From Runella rosea (GTDB lineage Bacteria; Bacteroidota; Bacteroidia; Cytophagales; Spirosomataceae): a stretch of DNA of 64,000 nt. The stretch's first letter is position 1, and each line of letters begins with the position of its first letter. A program made the translations under genes and the position numbers. The notes under the pieces were generated by a model. That model was not told where the DNA came from and ran no database searches. It worked only from the letters and a program-made list of their open reading frames with translations. Of this stretch, positions 56,265 to 64,000 are shown one piece after another. The stretch is taken from NCBI RefSeq assembly GCF_003325355.1, contig NZ_CP030850.1:6399001-6463000 (forward strand). Direction: 5' to 3'.

Positions 56265-57725
56265 TTACTTCAACAGCGCTCGGATGGCTTCTTCTGCTTT
56301 GCCAGATGAGGGTCTTGGGGCAAGGGTGCTCACGATTTTCCCCTGTTGGTCAATGAGAAAATACTTAGGAACGCCGCCCCCGCATTGATAACCTTCGTCG
56401 ATTTTACGTTGTTCGATGGGCGAGAGTCTGATGTGGATACCTTCTGGGCTGTTGGCGGTTTTTAGGAATTTACCCCAGGCGTTTGGGTCACCATCGACGG
56501 AAGCATATAGAAACACAACTTCGTTAATTCCTTCAAACTGTTTTTTCAATTCTTTTGCCCACGGAAATTCGGCCCGGCAGGGTCCACACCAAGTCGCCCA
56601 CATATCGACGTAAACCACTTTTCCTTTTAGACTGCTTAACGATAATTGTTTACCGTCGGGCGTTTCTCCCGTAAAATCATGCGCGGTTGTGCCAGATGCT
56701 ACGCTGAGCCATTTTGCATAACTTTTTTGCAAAACGGGCAGATACGGCGAGGTACCGTAATGGGTTTTGAAATCCGTAAGCAGGCTATCAGTAGCGGGAA
56801 TTATTCCCAGTGTTTCCAGCGCTTCATCAATGTTTCTAGCCAAAAAGAACGCTTTAAAAGGAGGCGCAAACGTACTTTTTTGAATGTTTGCGTGGGCGGC
56901 CTGAGGAAGGATATGGCGAATCGAATCTATTTTTTGCGGTGTGTCGGTCGGTTTAAAAAAAGGATTGTAGAATTTTTGCCGATAATAATAATCCAGCATT
57001 CCTGTGTAATTTATCAATCCTGAATAAAGGAGGGTGGTATCAAAAAAGAGGGTATTCGTCAATTCTTTCAGACGTATTGGCATTTTGTCTTTGGTGGCAA
57101 AAGATCCAAAATAAGCATCCGCATAATTTTGAGCAAATGCCAGTACCAACAGCTCATTGTTGGCCTTGAGTAAAGTACTTACGTTTTTCGGCAAGGGGTG
57201 CTTTGAAGTATAACGGGCATAAAAAGTGTTCATCGCTTTTGCCATTGTATCCAATCCAATGATAAAATCGTTTGCTTCTAACTCGATTATATCTTGGTTT
57301 TTAAAACGAGAAGATTTCTTCTGAATGACGGCTGATTGCCACAGGTAATTATTGGCTTCGGCCCCTTTTCCAGAAAAAGTAAAATTGGTATTTAGTAAGT
57401 CAACTTCAAGGCGTAAGTTGTCGCCTGGGCTAAGATACAGGTCTGTTTTTTTAGTGCCAATGCGTATTTCGGCGAAGGTAGGTTTGGTCAATGAGAGCAG
57501 TAATACAGCATTTCCTGAAGAATTAATTTGACTGCCAGCTAAAGTGTCTCTTCGGTAGTTGATCGAATTGAATTTCGTGATAAAAACGCTCAATCCCTGC
57601 GTTCTTCCAGTTATTTTTAGAGAAATCTGAACCGTGGAGGAGGCAGGTAAATTGTTTTCATTTTGGGCAAAACAGCCAATGCCAAAGCAAAATGTTAGGA
57701 AGAAGAAGAGGAGCGAAGTTTTCAT
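56265..57725 (-). CDS. TlpA-like thioredoxin-fold protein with N-terminal DUF4369-type domain
   Basis: A 486-residue exported protein with a signal peptide (cleaved near GCFAQ). The first 120 residues look like the beta domain common in Bacteroidota TlpA proteins (ISLKITGRTQGLSVFIT, FAEIRIGTKKTDLYLSPG); a helical middle follows; the C-terminal thioredoxin domain (about 348-480) has WATWCGPCRAE with Cys380 and Cys383. It reduces disulfides in the periplasm, for example on apocytochromes. The heme-c protein and haloperoxidase encoded just upstream on the same strand could be clients; a 68-base gap leaves co-transcription open. Confidence 0.92.
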   Translation of the reverse strand: MKTSLLFFFLTFCFGIGCFAQNENNLPASSTVQISLKITGRTQGLSVFITKFNSINYRRDTLAGSQINSSGNAVLLLSLTKPTFAEIRIGTKKTDLYLSPGDNLRLEVDLLNTNFTFSGKGAEANNYLWQSAVIQKKSSRFKNQDIIELEANDFIIGLDTMAKAMNTFYARYTSKHPLPKNVSTLLKANNELLVLAFAQNYADAYFGSFATKDKMPIRLKELTNTLFFDTTLLYSGLINYTGMLDYYYRQKFYNPFFKPTDTPQKIDSIRHILPQAAHANIQKSTFAPPFKAFFLARNIDEALETLGIIPATDSLLTDFKTHYGTSPYLPVLQKSYAKWLSVASGTTAHDFTGETPDGKQLSLSSLKGKVVYVDMWATWCGPCRAEFPWAKELKKQFEGINEVVFLYASVDGDPNAWGKFLKTANSPEGIHIRLSPIEQRKIDEGYQCGGGVPKYFLIDQQGKIVSTLAPRPSSGKAEEAIRALLK

Positions 57726-57793
57726 AAAGCAGGCGTTAAAGGCTCTATATTATAGCTTTAATGAAAAGATGGTAGATGGTAGTTGGCTTGCTT

Positions 57794-59140
57794 TTACTTA
57801 CGTATTTTTATTTTTTGAAGCACCCATTCTCCAATTTGCTGACCCTGCTTTTGACCATTTTCGATGGCGGGGCGGTAATGAATCCCGCCGTACAAACGGC
57901 TGATTGAGGCTTCCTCGGCGGCTTGTTTAAAAGAACTGAACTGTCGGGTAGGTAAGCCGTAGGGTACTTCTGTCGCATCCAAAAACGCAATATTGTCGCC
58001 AAACCAATGGGTAAGCACCACGGCCACCGCCGAAGAAATAACGCTGTGGCCACTGGTGTATTCAGGGAAAGGCGGTGTTTGGAGCAACGGCCGCCATTTT
58101 TCGTCGATATGCGCGTTGATATAGGTTTCGGGACGAATTACATTTGAACGGTACTTCTCGTCCCAACAACTGATAAACCCATCAAACAATGCAATGGCTG
58201 TGAGCGTATAAGCGGCGCTACTTTTCATAATATCAGCGTTGGTTTGAGCCGCTACCTGACCCGCAATAGAAAGCCAGTGACCTCCCGGTGAAAGCTTTTT
58301 TGTGCCAAAGTTGAGGTGCCCCTTGGTGTTGAGAAAGAAAGGGTTGCAATCCCAAAAATTGGCAATTAGGGTTTGTTCAGGCGTTAAGGTTTGTCCTACC
58401 TGATGTACGTCTTTTGCCAGTTGAAAAAAAGGGCTATCGGGAGCGGTACTAAAAGGCGCATTGGGGGCGGGCCTGCACTGGGAAGCAGAGTCCAGCACCA
58501 GAGGTCGAATTCGATTCCAGTAGGGTTCTACCGCCGCCATGTATCCCGGCGGAGTGGGCAACCACATCCCGGGGCGCTTGATAGGTGCATAACGCCGCAT
58601 AGCCCGGGTGGCTTTGTAGTTATCTTTGGTAGTCCAGCTCAATATGTGTTGGGCCACCTGTCGCCCATACGCCCGCGAAAGTGCCAGTGTATCTGGCGAA
58701 TACCCCTTTTGTACAAAACTTTGCCAGATTTTTGCGCTGCTTTCATCAAACATTTGTTCCGAAAAAATCATGGTACGTCCAGTCGTGAGGAGTGCTTCAA
58801 TGGCCGCAATGCTAGGGTTGATACGGTGGGTAGGAACAGGGGGCGGGGTGAGCTGGGAAAGTTGTCCGGCCAACGACTGATGCGAAAATGGTCGGGCTGC
58901 CACCAATGTTTCGTAGGCCGCCACGTGGGCGTATGCGTACACGCGGGAAGCCACGGGCGGGGTGAGAATATCGGTAACGATGACATCGGTCAGGAGTTGG
59001 TGCGCTTGGTGGAAGGCCGTTTCCTCAAACCGGGTACTTTGACTCATGGCTTGGGGACTGCAAATAACCCCCAAAAGCAGTAATACTCCGCTGATGGGGC
59101 TTTGTTGTAGACAAAAAAATATATTTTTTGGGAAAGCCAT
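57794..59140 (-). CDS. Vanadium-dependent haloperoxidase (PAP2 superfamily)
   Basis: A 448-residue exported protein with a signal peptide (cleaved near QAMSQ). All expected vanadate ligands are present: Lys329 and Arg336 in EKYRSNVIRPETY, Ser363-Gly364-His365 in EYTSGHSV (phosphatase/haloperoxidase motif), Arg415 and the axial His421 in SRLYGGIHY. The spacing K-x6-RP, SGH and R-x5-H is that of fungal and algal vanadium haloperoxidases; related phosphatases share it, so halide oxidation is likely but not proven. It lies 9 bases after the FG-GAP protein gene and is the last gene of a probable three-gene operon. Confidence 0.93.
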   Translation of the reverse strand: MAFPKNIFFCLQQSPISGVLLLLGVICSPQAMSQSTRFEETAFHQAHQLLTDVIVTDILTPPVASRVYAYAHVAAYETLVAARPFSHQSLAGQLSQLTPPPVPTHRINPSIAAIEALLTTGRTMIFSEQMFDESSAKIWQSFVQKGYSPDTLALSRAYGRQVAQHILSWTTKDNYKATRAMRRYAPIKRPGMWLPTPPGYMAAVEPYWNRIRPLVLDSASQCRPAPNAPFSTAPDSPFFQLAKDVHQVGQTLTPEQTLIANFWDCNPFFLNTKGHLNFGTKKLSPGGHWLSIAGQVAAQTNADIMKSSAAYTLTAIALFDGFISCWDEKYRSNVIRPETYINAHIDEKWRPLLQTPPFPEYTSGHSVISSAVAVVLTHWFGDNIAFLDATEVPYGLPTRQFSSFKQAAEEASISRLYGGIHYRPAIENGQKQGQQIGEWVLQKIKIRK

Positions 59141-59149
59141 GCCGTGTGT

Positions 59150-62100
59150 TTACTTAAATTCAAAAATCTTTAATTGGTCATTGTTTAAGCCCAATAATAA
59201 CTTTCTAGGGCCTGATTTGGTCTGAATAATAGTGGCAGTGCGCACGTCCCCTTGCGCCCATAAGCCTGTTTGAGCGGGAGAAAGTGGTGTAAATAGCCCT
59301 TTGCCGTTGCCTTTCATCAGTTGCCCGAAGCTGCCGTCACAGGGCCCCATTTGTACCCGATACGGGTGAAAATTACCCAATAACAGTAGGTCTTTATGGC
59401 CGTCTTGGTCTACGTCTTCGTACAAAATACTGCTGATGCGCGAAAACTGTGCTTCAACCGAAAATGCCTCGAAATCAAATTTACCGTTGTTATTGCGAAA
59501 AATGCCCGAAGCCAATTGGCGGCAGTAGACCGTGTGGGCTTGGGCGAGTTGTTTGTTTGTATAAATGTCGTTGATGGTGGCGTTGGCGTAGAGATGATAG
59601 CGATTAAATTTTTTACGAAGTGGTACCACTTGGTCGAGCAGTTCATCGCGGGAGGCGACGGGATAGCTTTTTCCCTCTATGAAATAACACCAAATGGGAT
59701 CAATGACGCCATCATCGTTGATGTCGGCGGCCACGATACTCATGGGTTCTTTGACTGACGCCCTAAATTGGTTGTTGAGGCCTGCATTGCCCGCAATGAT
59801 GTCTAGGTCTCCGTCGTTGTCAACATCGGCGGGCAGCAGCGTCGCCCACAATCCTTCGGTGTTGGTAAGCCCGCTTTCTTCTGATATATCGGTGAGACGG
59901 CCGCCCTTGTTTCGGAAAATTTTGAGCGGCATCCAATCGCCCGCCAAAATCAGTTCGGGGTATTTATCCTTGTCTAAATCAGCCCAAACGGCCGTTTGAA
60001 CCATGCCGATGGTGCGTAAAGCGGGGGCTGTTTGATCTGTAATGTCGGTGAAAATACCTTTATCATTTCGGAGAAGATAACTTACAGAAGGCATTGGAAA
60101 AAAGCCTGCTTTGCCGCGCCCTCCAACAAAAAGGTCGAGGTCGCCATCTTGGTCAAAATCTGCTGCTGTTACGGCCATTTTACTGTCGTTCATGGTGGGA
60201 AGGGTCGAAATAGCGCGCTGAAAAAGACCTTTTCCGTCGTTGATATACAGCCGGTCTTGGTATTCGGGAGAGCCAGATTCATACTCATTTCCCCCGCTGA
60301 CTACGTACAAATCAGCGTCTTTGTCACCATCGGCATCGAAGAAAAGGGCGTTGACATCCTCACTGACGGCTTCCTTTTGCCAAGGTTGTTGGGCAGCCCG
60401 CTGAAAATTGCCATCGGTACGTTGCATCCACAATTCTCCACTTTGTTCTACGGCCCCGCCCGCAAAAATATCCTCCAGCCCGTCGCTATTTACATCCGCT
60501 TTCGCCAGGGCAGGGCCTAGTCGGGAGAGCTGGTAAGGAATCAATACTTCGACTTTAAAATCAATAAAATCGTTTTCTCGGTGATGAAAATATAAAGTGT
60601 TTTTTGCTGCTGTTTCGGTAAAAATCGGAGAGCGATTAGGCATGGCAAAGGCCGCTGTTTCGGTGGCATCCTGCTGCGATAATTCAATCAGCCGGTCGGT
60701 GGGAGGGCTGGGTAAAATGCTACGTTTTCCGTTGGGCCAATACACCGTGAGGGATTTTACAGACGGCTGTGTGCCCAGTCCAAAACTGAGCAGTGGTTCG
60801 ACCGACGCCTGATAGCCACGCACGGGATACAGCTCCCGGTATTGAACCCCAGCGGTGGTTTCAACGATAACTTTTGCTCCCAAAGCTTGGGCGTTGCCAT
60901 CTTGCCCCTTGAGCTTTACCTTTAAAAAATGGGGCTTGTCACTATTAAGGTTGACTTGGTTTTGGTAAAGATGTACGGGTTCATTTTGGTTGCAAACCAC
61001 CATGTCCATGTCACCATCATCGTCAAAATCGGCGTAGGCGGCGGCCGTTGAAACCGAAGGCGAAGTAATGCCCCATTCTTGGTTTTTCTTTGAAAACGTT
61101 AAATCATGGTTGTTCCGAAAAACGTAATTAAGCAGTCGGTTTGAGGGCATTTTTTTGACCAACTCAAAGGTCTGAAAATCAAGTATTCCGCGCGCTGCGT
61201 AGTCTAGTTTGGCCTCAGCAACGGTATATTTCATAAAATCTAAGTCGGTAAAATCGCGCAAATAACCGTTGGAAACAAACAAATCCTGCCAGCCATCGTT
61301 GTCAAAATCGGCAAATAATCCCGCCCAACTCCAGTCGGTGGCAGAAACACCCGCCAACTGACCAATTTCTGAAAACGCTGGGGTTGCATTATTTTGCTTC
61401 ACCCCTTGGTTTAATTGTAGCATATTACGCATATTTTGATGGTAATATCCGCTGTCTATCAAGAGTTTATATTGGTCGTATTCATCGGGCCCTTTCAGCA
61501 TTTTTTGACGATGGTTATCTTCAGGCAGCATGTCGAGGGTAAACACATCGGGCCGGGTATCGTTGTTGTAATCGGCAATGTCTACCCCCATCGAAAACTT
61601 AGAAGTATGGGCCATACTCTGGCGCAATGATTCTTTGAAAGTGCCGTCCTGTTGGTTGAGGTAAAGGCAGTCTTGTTCGGTATAATCACTGGTGGAATAA
61701 ATATCGGGCCAACCATCGTGGTTGAGGTCAGCAATGGCAACACCTAACCCAAAATTGAGGGGGTTGTTAATAATCCCCGCCTGTAAAGTAACGTCCTCAA
61801 AGAGGCCTTTTTCATTTTTTAACAATCGATTGCCAAAACGCATATCGGGGGTTGCGCGAATGGAACGGGTATTCAAGAACGGATTGTAGGTATGGTTGGA
61901 ATGGTTGAGGACAAACACGTCCAAATCACCATCGCGGTCATAATCAAAGAACGCGGCTTGGGTGCTTTGCGTGCCTGGCAAATCCAGCCCGTACTCACGC
62001 GCACTTTCTTTAAAGACGGGAATCCCTTTTTGGACGCCTTGGTTAATAAAAAGCTCATTGACGAGGCGTTCAGAGGGGAATTTTCCCGAATGGCAAACGT

Positions 62101-62554
62101 AAATATCCAATAAACCGTCGCCATTGATATCTACTACACTCACTCCCGTGCCCCAGGTACCGTTGCCAGTTATGCCGGCAGGAGCAGTAACATCCTCAAA
62201 TTTCCAGTTTTTGCGATTGAGGTATAATTTATGAGGAACGGTATTGCCCGAAAAGAACAAATCGGGTAATCCGTCGTTGTCAAAATCTCCCACGCCTACG
62301 CCGTTACCGTTGTAGAGGTATTCGTATTTGAAAATGTGCAAAGAATCGTCTTCCTTGATTTGATTGATGAACCTAACACCCGTTTGGTCTGGACTCAACA
62401 GTTTGAAGAGAGGCTGGGCAGCGGCTGATATACTGGGGTGTTGTTTGTCCTTTTTACCGATGGTTACAAACTTTTCTTTGGGTGCCGTTGGCAGTAAAAT
62501 CTGAAACAGCAATAAAGCGGAGAAACCCAAGGCGCTGTATAAAAGTCGATTCAT
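59150..62554 (-). CDS. Giant secreted FG-GAP/VCBS repeat protein with UnbV domain (CRTAC1-like)
   Basis: An 1134-residue exported protein with a signal anchor at the N-terminus. It contains two beta-propeller halves built of FG-GAP repeats with calcium-binding DxDxDGxxD loops (GVGDFDNDGLPDLF, VSVVDINGDGLLDIYV, AAYADFDDDGDMDMVV, VTAADFDQDGDLDLFVG). Between them lies an ASPIC/UnbV domain (GAKVIVETTAGVQYRELYP, TVYWPNGKRSILPS). Such proteins are cell-surface or periplasmic scaffolds. It is encoded between the heme-copper oxygenase and the haloperoxidase, with gaps of 33 and 9 bases, so it may hold them together; that is inference. Confidence 0.94.
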   Translation of the reverse strand: MNRLLYSALGFSALLLFQILLPTAPKEKFVTIGKKDKQHPSISAAAQPLFKLLSPDQTGVRFINQIKEDDSLHIFKYEYLYNGNGVGVGDFDNDGLPDLFFSGNTVPHKLYLNRKNWKFEDVTAPAGITGNGTWGTGVSVVDINGDGLLDIYVCHSGKFPSERLVNELFINQGVQKGIPVFKESAREYGLDLPGTQSTQAAFFDYDRDGDLDVFVLNHSNHTYNPFLNTRSIRATPDMRFGNRLLKNEKGLFEDVTLQAGIINNPLNFGLGVAIADLNHDGWPDIYSTSDYTEQDCLYLNQQDGTFKESLRQSMAHTSKFSMGVDIADYNNDTRPDVFTLDMLPEDNHRQKMLKGPDEYDQYKLLIDSGYYHQNMRNMLQLNQGVKQNNATPAFSEIGQLAGVSATDWSWAGLFADFDNDGWQDLFVSNGYLRDFTDLDFMKYTVAEAKLDYAARGILDFQTFELVKKMPSNRLLNYVFRNNHDLTFSKKNQEWGITSPSVSTAAAYADFDDDGDMDMVVCNQNEPVHLYQNQVNLNSDKPHFLKVKLKGQDGNAQALGAKVIVETTAGVQYRELYPVRGYQASVEPLLSFGLGTQPSVKSLTVYWPNGKRSILPSPPTDRLIELSQQDATETAAFAMPNRSPIFTETAAKNTLYFHHRENDFIDFKVEVLIPYQLSRLGPALAKADVNSDGLEDIFAGGAVEQSGELWMQRTDGNFQRAAQQPWQKEAVSEDVNALFFDADGDKDADLYVVSGGNEYESGSPEYQDRLYINDGKGLFQRAISTLPTMNDSKMAVTAADFDQDGDLDLFVGGRGKAGFFPMPSVSYLLRNDKGIFTDITDQTAPALRTIGMVQTAVWADLDKDKYPELILAGDWMPLKIFRNKGGRLTDISEESGLTNTEGLWATLLPADVDNDGDLDIIAGNAGLNNQFRASVKEPMSIVAADINDDGVIDPIWCYFIEGKSYPVASRDELLDQVVPLRKKFNRYHLYANATINDIYTNKQLAQAHTVYCRQLASGIFRNNNGKFDFEAFSVEAQFSRISSILYEDVDQDGHKDLLLLGNFHPYRVQMGPCDGSFGQLMKGNGKGLFTPLSPAQTGLWAQGDVRTATIIQTKSGPRKLLLGLNNDQLKIFEFK

Positions 62555-62587
62555 ATCGGTCGTGTTTAATGAAAGAATCCAGCCAGT

Positions 62588-63907
62588 TTATTCCCAAGTT
62601 TTTTTTTCGTCGTCGTCCAGATAAGGCACGTATACCAACAACAGCGTAAGCATTTCCTGATCGCTGCGCATATCGCCCGTCGATAAAATAAGTTTCGGGG
62701 GGTTAAACGGATTGGCGGGGTTTTCGGCGGTATTGTCGTAAGTGCCGTCGATGTTGATGACTGAGCCGCGTCGCAGTACTACTGGCCGGCGATAACGATA
62801 GAGTTCTTGCCACCTGAAATCCCACTTGGGGATGTGTACCAACGGGATGGTATCGCTGGGGGTGGTGGCGTAGGCTTTGAATTCAGCGCCGATTTGGTGC
62901 ATGTGCGGCCATACATACAGCAATGAAATATCCTCGTTTCGGTTGGTCACTTGGAGATGGTGCGTTGATTTGTCATTGGCAAAAATCATCAGCGGAGGGT
63001 CGATGTCCTTCTGACCGATGCCGCCTGAACCCAAGCTGATTACTTTTACGGTGCGTTGGATGGGTTCAGATTTAAAAAAGAAGTTGACTCCGTCGATGCT
63101 TTCGGCGTCTTTGCCCGCAGGGCCAAAGTGAATCGTAAGCAAAATCACGCCTCGCTTGGGCATTCGCCAGCCAACGCCAGCTGGGTATGATTCGTACGAT
63201 GAGCCTGGTATCCAGCCGCCATAATATACCATTTGCTTTTTATACGGAAGCCATTGGTCGTAGTTATATTTCTCGTCGGTACCCAGATTGATTTGTGACA
63301 CCGTAGTATGAATGTCAATGCGTGGGTCTTCAACGGGGTGAACCGCGTAGTTGGCGTGATGAATGATTTTTTTATTGTTGGAAGTAAACTCTACCGCTTC
63401 CACGTTGGCTTCGGCAGGCAGTTCAAAAGGAATCTTGAATACCATAAAGCGCTCTTCGCCATCCCCTTTTTGGAGGTAAGATTGCGCCATCTTGAGTGTC
63501 AAATCAGGCTTGCGGTGGTAAGCGGTACCAGCATCGGTGCGCTCTAAGAGTTTAGTTTCTGCTTCAAGGTTGACTTTTCCTTTGGGCATACCGTCGTCAA
63601 TCCACGACCCAATGGTTTGGATTTGGGACTCGGTAAGTTGGCGTTTGTTGGTAAAATCGGTGTAGTGGTCGTTGGCGTACCAAGGCGGCATGTAGCCGTT
63701 GGTAGTCACTTTTTTGATGAAGTCGGAGCGTTTACTAATGTCATTGTAGGTAATGAGATTAAACGGAGCCGCTTCGCCAGGGCGGTGGCATCCAGCACAG
63801 TGTGCGTGGATAATAGGTTGTACGTCTTGGTAGAAGGTAAATTTTTGGGCAAAAGAAGTAATGCTGATAAGGCAGAAAAAAAATGCCTTACGATAGGATA
63901 CGTTCAT
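62588..63907 (-). CDS. Cytochrome c fused to a type 2 copper monooxygenase (PHM/DBM-like)
   Basis: A 439-residue exported protein; the ATG at 63907 gives the clean signal MNVSYRKAFFFCLISITSFAQ-like peptide, though 63928 is possible. The N-terminal heme-c domain has CAGCH (37-41) and a likely Met ligand in GYMPPW. The C-terminal part has the ligand set of peptidylglycine monooxygenase: HH at 183-184 (IIHHANY) and His260 (LLTIHFG, compare LQVHYG) for one copper, His335 and His337 (WPHMHQIG) plus Met419 (SDQEM) for the other. It should hydroxylate a carbon with O2, taking electrons through its own heme. It is the first gene of the operon with the FG-GAP protein and haloperoxidase. Confidence 0.9.
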   Translation of the reverse strand: MNVSYRKAFFFCLISITSFAQKFTFYQDVQPIIHAHCAGCHRPGEAAPFNLITYNDISKRSDFIKKVTTNGYMPPWYANDHYTDFTNKRQLTESQIQTIGSWIDDGMPKGKVNLEAETKLLERTDAGTAYHRKPDLTLKMAQSYLQKGDGEERFMVFKIPFELPAEANVEAVEFTSNNKKIIHHANYAVHPVEDPRIDIHTTVSQINLGTDEKYNYDQWLPYKKQMVYYGGWIPGSSYESYPAGVGWRMPKRGVILLTIHFGPAGKDAESIDGVNFFFKSEPIQRTVKVISLGSGGIGQKDIDPPLMIFANDKSTHHLQVTNRNEDISLLYVWPHMHQIGAEFKAYATTPSDTIPLVHIPKWDFRWQELYRYRRPVVLRRGSVINIDGTYDNTAENPANPFNPPKLILSTGDMRSDQEMLTLLLVYVPYLDDDEKKTWE

Positions 63908-63960: not shown

Positions 63961-63968
63961 CAAAAGTA
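63961..63968 (-). promoter_or_regulatory. -7 promoter element for the copper monooxygenase operon
   Basis: On the minus strand TACTTTTG (63968-63961) fits TAnnTTTG and lies 53 bases before the chosen start codon. Confidence 0.5.
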
Positions 63969-64000
63969 CGATAAATGAAAGAAAAAAATTCCGAGATAAA

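Follow-up and report, generated by a model that had tools for sequence, protein, structure and literature searches.

The window, a stretch of 64,000 nucleotides from the 7.16 Mb genome of Runella rosea, ends inside a locus which combines genes for oxidative enzymes with genes for a SusC/SusD uptake system. Four consecutive genes are found on its minus strand: P1 (62588-63907, 439 amino acids, with an alternative open GTG start at 63961) codes for a haem-c/type II dicopper monooxygenase, P2 (59150-62554, 1134 amino acids) for an FG-GAP/UnbV-ASPIC protein, P3 (57794-59140, 448 amino acids) for a vanadium haloperoxidase and P4 (56265-57725, 486 amino acids) for a TlpA/ResA-like thioredoxin-fold protein. 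The gaps between them are 33, 9 and 68 bases, in that order. An initial annotation, made from the window, had described the first three genes as an operon. Its gene coordinates, lengths and gaps were correct when re-read from the sequence, as were the positions it gave for the copper and vanadate residues. Nevertheless, the locus is larger than this three-gene description. Upstream of P1, past base 64000, lies SusD (G000:C1:6463056-6464753, SusD-like_2 over the cut-off), followed upstream by SusC (G000:C1:6464808-6468146, Plug and CarbopepD_reg_2 over the cut-off) and by a divergent ROK/NagC-type regulator (G000:C1:6468378-6469604). These three genes are beyond the window edge, hence outside the view of the initial annotation. 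The same SusC and SusD pair is found in relatives. A terminator-like hairpin with a T-run is also present on the minus strand between susD and P1 (63986-64015, its 3' part, 63986-64000, inside the window).

P1 contains a haem-c motif, CxxCH, at residues 37-41 (C37, C40, H41), followed by two sets of copper ligands: H183, H184 and H260 (a His3 site, HH and H) and H335, H337 and M419 (a His2Met site, HxH and M). The six copper ligands are invariant in an alignment of 80 rows, which includes rows down to about 30% identity, and so are C37, C40, H41, M73 and E418. M73 would be the axial haem ligand. In a profile match, the HH, H and HxH of P1 coincide with those of human DBH; the match stops before the Met. 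Residues ~124-433 have the DBM/PHM fold, with two jelly-roll domains in the predicted structure, and they match DBM/PHM far above any other structure. Identity of the P1 family to characterised DBM/PHM members in these fold matches is only 13-16%. The earlier description of P1 as a PHM/DBM-like monooxygenase with its own cytochrome c domain agrees with the profile, the fold and the invariant ligands. As far as fold matching goes, P1 also withstands the structural check which the initial annotation had named. The protein is probably exported to the periplasm.

P2 has 11 FG-GAP_3 stretches and a single UnbV_ASPIC domain (557-622), as expected from its previous description as a calcium-binding propeller protein with a UnbV domain. 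Its first half has a predicted CRTAC1-like fold, and a second propeller occupies residues 641-1134 approximately. This is a large family: There are eight matches in the Runella rosea genome, and 69 of 79 genomes are positive, that of Runella rosea included, in a survey which scored at most 9 candidates per genome. Among 20 P2 paralogue loci fetched, SusC is found within four genes upstream in 16. The initial annotation had proposed P2 as a scaffold for the two enzymes; this frequent association makes a role as an accessory of SusCD more likely. Three unlabelled genes between SusC and P2 paralogues were tested, and all are SusD. Within four genes on each side of these 20 paralogues, P1 is present in no case and P3 in one.

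Among solved enzymes, P3 comes nearest to 4cit/4usz (phmmer E 3.9e-138 against 4cit, aligned over 401 residues), and its PAP2 domain is above the Pfam cut-off. Residues K329, R336, S363, H365, R415 and H421 (and G), which we take to be the vanadate ligands as named in the initial annotation, show no variation across 42 haloperoxidases from the operon and 43 others. P3 is thus well placed as a vanadium haloperoxidase, and by its similarity it would oxidise halide with H2O2. Such haloperoxidases are common (57 of 79 genomes). P2 lies within two genes upstream of 18 of the 43 non-operon haloperoxidases in the P3 tree, two of the 18 having been fetched for other reasons, and some of these pairs stand as SusC-SusD-P2-haloperoxidase (L145, L150, L152). 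We should also note that one genome (G018, L048:9541-14353) has two genes downstream of P3, coding for a GDSL-type lipase/esterase and for a protein of 1154 amino acids which contains DUF7133 and HEAT repeats and matches cytochrome c weakly.

The arrangement P1-P2-P3 is not due to chance. P1 is found at E <= 1e-90 in 47 of the 222 genomes of the window's family (f1), its own included, and in 43 of them, from 11 genera, it has at least 58% identity. Runella (Spirosomataceae) supplies near-identical P1 loci (97-99%). The gene order P1-P2-P3, on one contig with relatives of SusC and SusD, is complete in 41 of these 43 operon genomes. The remaining two (G002 and G627) are interrupted by contig ends; in G002, the remainder of P2 is on another contig, together with P3 and P4. 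Two of the 41 complete loci (L095, L107) have P3 divided over two frames. Two arrangements exist: SusCD-P1P2P3, mostly with a divergent ROK, and P1P2P3-SusCD, without an adjoining ROK. Distances range from -53 to 223 bases between P1 and P2 and from -109 to 75 between P2 and P3, mostly short gaps or overlaps. The initial annotation had made its case depend on a gene order conserved in relatives, and this is what we find.

Outside these 43 genomes the picture is different. In a sample of the class, 9 of 395 genomes are positive for P1, seven of them beyond those already counted. Two of these seven (L117 and L118) have the full set, with a redoxin between SusD and P1. The triad is absent from the other five; in L119, which is among these, a P2 relative lies on the opposite strand. 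In the sister family f61, P1 is found at E <= 1e-120 in 25 of 301 genomes (26 places), and six more f61 loci that we read are all SusC-SusD-redoxin-P1, with no P2 or P3 within the 13 kb fetched. The triad requires two changes on the P1 tree (55 rows) and one on the P3 tree (71 rows). We read the operon as the union of two units, SusCD-redoxin-P1 and P2-P3, each also found alone.

The TlpA-like gene which had been noticed behind the triad is indeed there. It is not a general member of the operon: P4 is found in 4 of the 43 operon genomes, all closely related within the genus, and is accessory. A different redoxin, AhpC/TSA-like and of ~190 amino acids, is directly upstream of P1 in 17 of 30 P1 genes without an adjoining P2 (for example L113:8713-9282 and L183), and also in L117 (L117:8852-9430) and L118, which have the triad. 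We may speculate that these redoxins, and TlpA in four genomes, answer a need for thiol reduction, such as copper or haem insertion.

The Runella rosea genome also contains a P1 paralogue (35%; L058:9411-16614, G000:C1, around 3.63 Mb) in the order SusC-SusD-~240 amino acid lipoprotein-like protein-P1. This order is repeated in L071, L072, L073 (with one additional frame in between) and L074, and in L072 it is adjoined by GH32 and a PfkB sugar kinase. The two ~240 amino acid proteins scanned, from L058 and L074, have no Pfam match. A further Cu2_monoox_C match in the genome (L001, G000:C1:2683924-2684238) has one TAA within the reading.

The hairpin at the susD-P1 junction is found in all 18 loci tested, with varying sequence; four are near-identical. 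At other junctions the counts are 0 of 48 after P1, 1 of 44 after P2 and 0 of 46 after the SusC of the operon group. Where the gene behind an operon-group SusD is not P1, the hairpin is found in 3 of 4 cases; behind SusD genes outside the group, it is found in 16 of 33. Expression of the enzyme genes may be weaker than that of susCD, or be driven by their own promoter, and the hairpin could govern how much transporter is made relative to enzyme.

Neighbouring genes in relatives give some clues about the substrate. Glycoside hydrolases (GH) are found at several P1 loci: GH20 (L049, L087, L117), GH125 (L117), GH29 with GH3 (L118, L184) and additional GH29 (L090, L117, L183, L186, L187). GH29 is present in 7 of 75 P1 neighbourhoods and in 3 of 64 controls, two of these three being SusCD-P2-haloperoxidase loci. 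A family of ~840 amino acid esterase/peptidase-S9-like proteins is present in 8 of 75 P1 neighbourhoods, from two families, compared with none of the 64 controls. The loci with this esterase are L049, L087, L090, L116, L183, L186, L187 and L188. We have also searched 61 P1 genomes for both genes within 15 kb of P1, the queries being a single GH29 protein and a single esterase, both of L183. The expected numbers are those for genes placed uniformly in genomes of 7.0 and 5.6 Mb, and related genomes cannot be counted as independent: With this proviso, GH29 is close to P1 in 19 of 26 f61 places (24 with the gene; 0.13 expected) and the esterase in 7 of 26 (19 with the gene; 0.10 expected). In f1, the esterase is close in 4 of 36 places (30 with the gene; 0.13 expected). 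In the window's genome it lies 22 kb from the locus, with other genes intervening. Such proximity suggests a glycan-linked substrate, perhaps alpha-L-fucosylated and esterified, a clue which appears strong for f61 and weak for the window itself. The aromatic or amidated substrate suggested initially finds no support: The neighbours in relatives point to glycans instead.

We propose that the locus (divergent ROK, SusC, SusD, P1, P2 and P3) is an operon for uptake of the SusCD type, which also carries a set of oxidative enzymes acting in one pathway, and we give this reading an even chance of being correct. It suggests an undescribed route for oxidising an imported, possibly sugar-linked compound. 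SusC and SusD would carry the substrate across the outer membrane, with the CRTAC1-like P2 probably acting as their extra ligand-binding protein. In the periplasm, P1 would use O2 at a dicopper site of the DBM/PHM type to hydroxylate the substrate, taking electrons from its own haem c in place of ascorbate. Hydroxylation beside an O or N atom could then split off a side group, an oxidative dealkylation. PHM works in this way on glycine-extended peptides. P3, with halide and H2O2, might modify or detoxify a product, the peroxide possibly coming from uncoupled turnover of P1; of the whole mechanism, what P3 does is the point we are least sure of. The hairpin after susD would keep expression of the enzymes lower than that of the transporter. 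The initial annotation had already placed the three proteins in one oxidative pathway: Its families, metal ligands and operon are supported, as is conservation of the operon, while the joint pathway is what we infer.

Several observations weigh against this proposal. On its own, P1 is under the Pfam cut-offs for Cu2_monoox_C (15.1 vs 23 bits) and Cytochrome_CBB3 (20.4 vs 27 bits), so that we assign it by its profile match, by its fold match and by its conserved ligands. In the alignment, 67 of the 80 P1 members match Cu2_monoox_C at E <= 0.01, and the window's P1 is not among them. Pfam scans of the operon proteins detect no carbohydrate-active enzyme or glycosidase in the window's own operon. 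In f1, GH29 is within 15 kb of P1 in only 3 of 36 places (34 with the gene; 0.15 expected), and the nearest GH29 of that type in the window's genome is 1.67 Mb off. SusCD systems also import non-sugars. P2 and P3 are missing from six of the eight f61 loci read, and also from the loci of four f1 genomes in which P1 has 54-55% identity and the order is SusC-SusD-redoxin-P1: P1 therefore does not need P3. Finally, a general terminator scan of the locus gives 18 sites, compared with 18.4 in shuffles, so that a single hairpin means little and only its recurrence counts.

We consider the first alternative rather unlikely: The operon would hold two modules with separate pathways, SusCD and P1 acting on one compound, and P2-P3 being a halide-oxidising pair (for defence, iodide handling or peroxide removal) placed behind P1. 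The recurrence of P2-P3 pairs without P1, and of SusCD-redoxin-P1 without P2-P3, speaks for it. On the other hand, the triad is kept, mostly at short distances or overlapping, in 11 f1 genera and two f61 genomes, survives a changed order relative to SusCD, and the same GH29 type is present at both partial locus types. A halide or iodine operon is much less probable. Here P3 would make hypohalous acid from peroxide, SusCD would import the halogenated product, and P1 would help remove it or supply peroxide. The nearest enzyme to P3 fits this idea, since 4usz is named as a Zobellia vanadium iodoperoxidase (PMC5064120). However, P3 is absent beside P1 in most f61 loci read, and we noticed neither a dehalogenase nor a transporter for halide in the neighbourhoods, a weak point as most neighbour genes were not scanned. 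We give equally little credence to P1 being an electron-transfer or copper-handling protein which retained the fold and is not a hydroxylase: Its low identity to characterised members and its Pfam scores would agree, but the invariance of six copper ligands, haem ligands and E418 would not.

Returning to the one-pathway proposal, we may extend it, with considerable doubt: P1 would be the founder of a line within the dopamine-beta-hydroxylase family which acts on glycans. Wired by its own haem c, this dicopper oxygenase from sugar loci of Bacteroidota would be a counterpart to lytic polysaccharide monooxygenases or to the porphyran P450 demethylase, and would here be coupled to a vanadium haloperoxidase, the two oxidising step by step a fucosylated glycan with ether or ester decorations. 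If the proposal is true, an enzyme of the DBM/PHM type with a built-in haem electron source, placed in a bacterial import operon, would extend its family beyond hormone chemistry and offer a natural model for electron delivery to a copper pair. SusCD loci are known mostly for hydrolases; a redox step could be added to this locus type. To our knowledge, the roles of bacterial vanadium haloperoxidases are mostly unknown. These enzymes gain a fixed genetic context, open to gene deletion.

The components all come from known families, and loci of the SusCD kind are familiar. We have not found the copper-haem enzyme, propeller protein, haloperoxidase and SusCD together in the literature searched (open-licence PMC papers only). 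P1 shares the fold and the full CuH/CuM ligand set with DBM and PHM. Unlike them, it is bacterial, presumably exported, distant in sequence and part of a SusCD operon, and it has a haem-c domain in front; DBM carries a DOMON domain and PHM has no extra domain. P2 adds a second propeller to the fold of murine CRTAC1 (cartilage acidic protein 1, 9etn), and its family is usually behind SusC-SusD in the loci fetched. P3 shares all vanadate ligands with the Zobellia galactanivorans iodoperoxidase; it differs in having Phe268 where 4cit has Tyr, and in its operon context. Bacteria are already known to use an oxygenase on sugars in the porphyran system, where a P450 is reported to demethylate 6-O-methyl-galactose oxidatively (PMC10033563). 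The oxygen-inserting step would be common to both systems, but the window's locus has a copper/haem-c enzyme and a haloperoxidase instead of a P450, and its operon includes no glycosidase.
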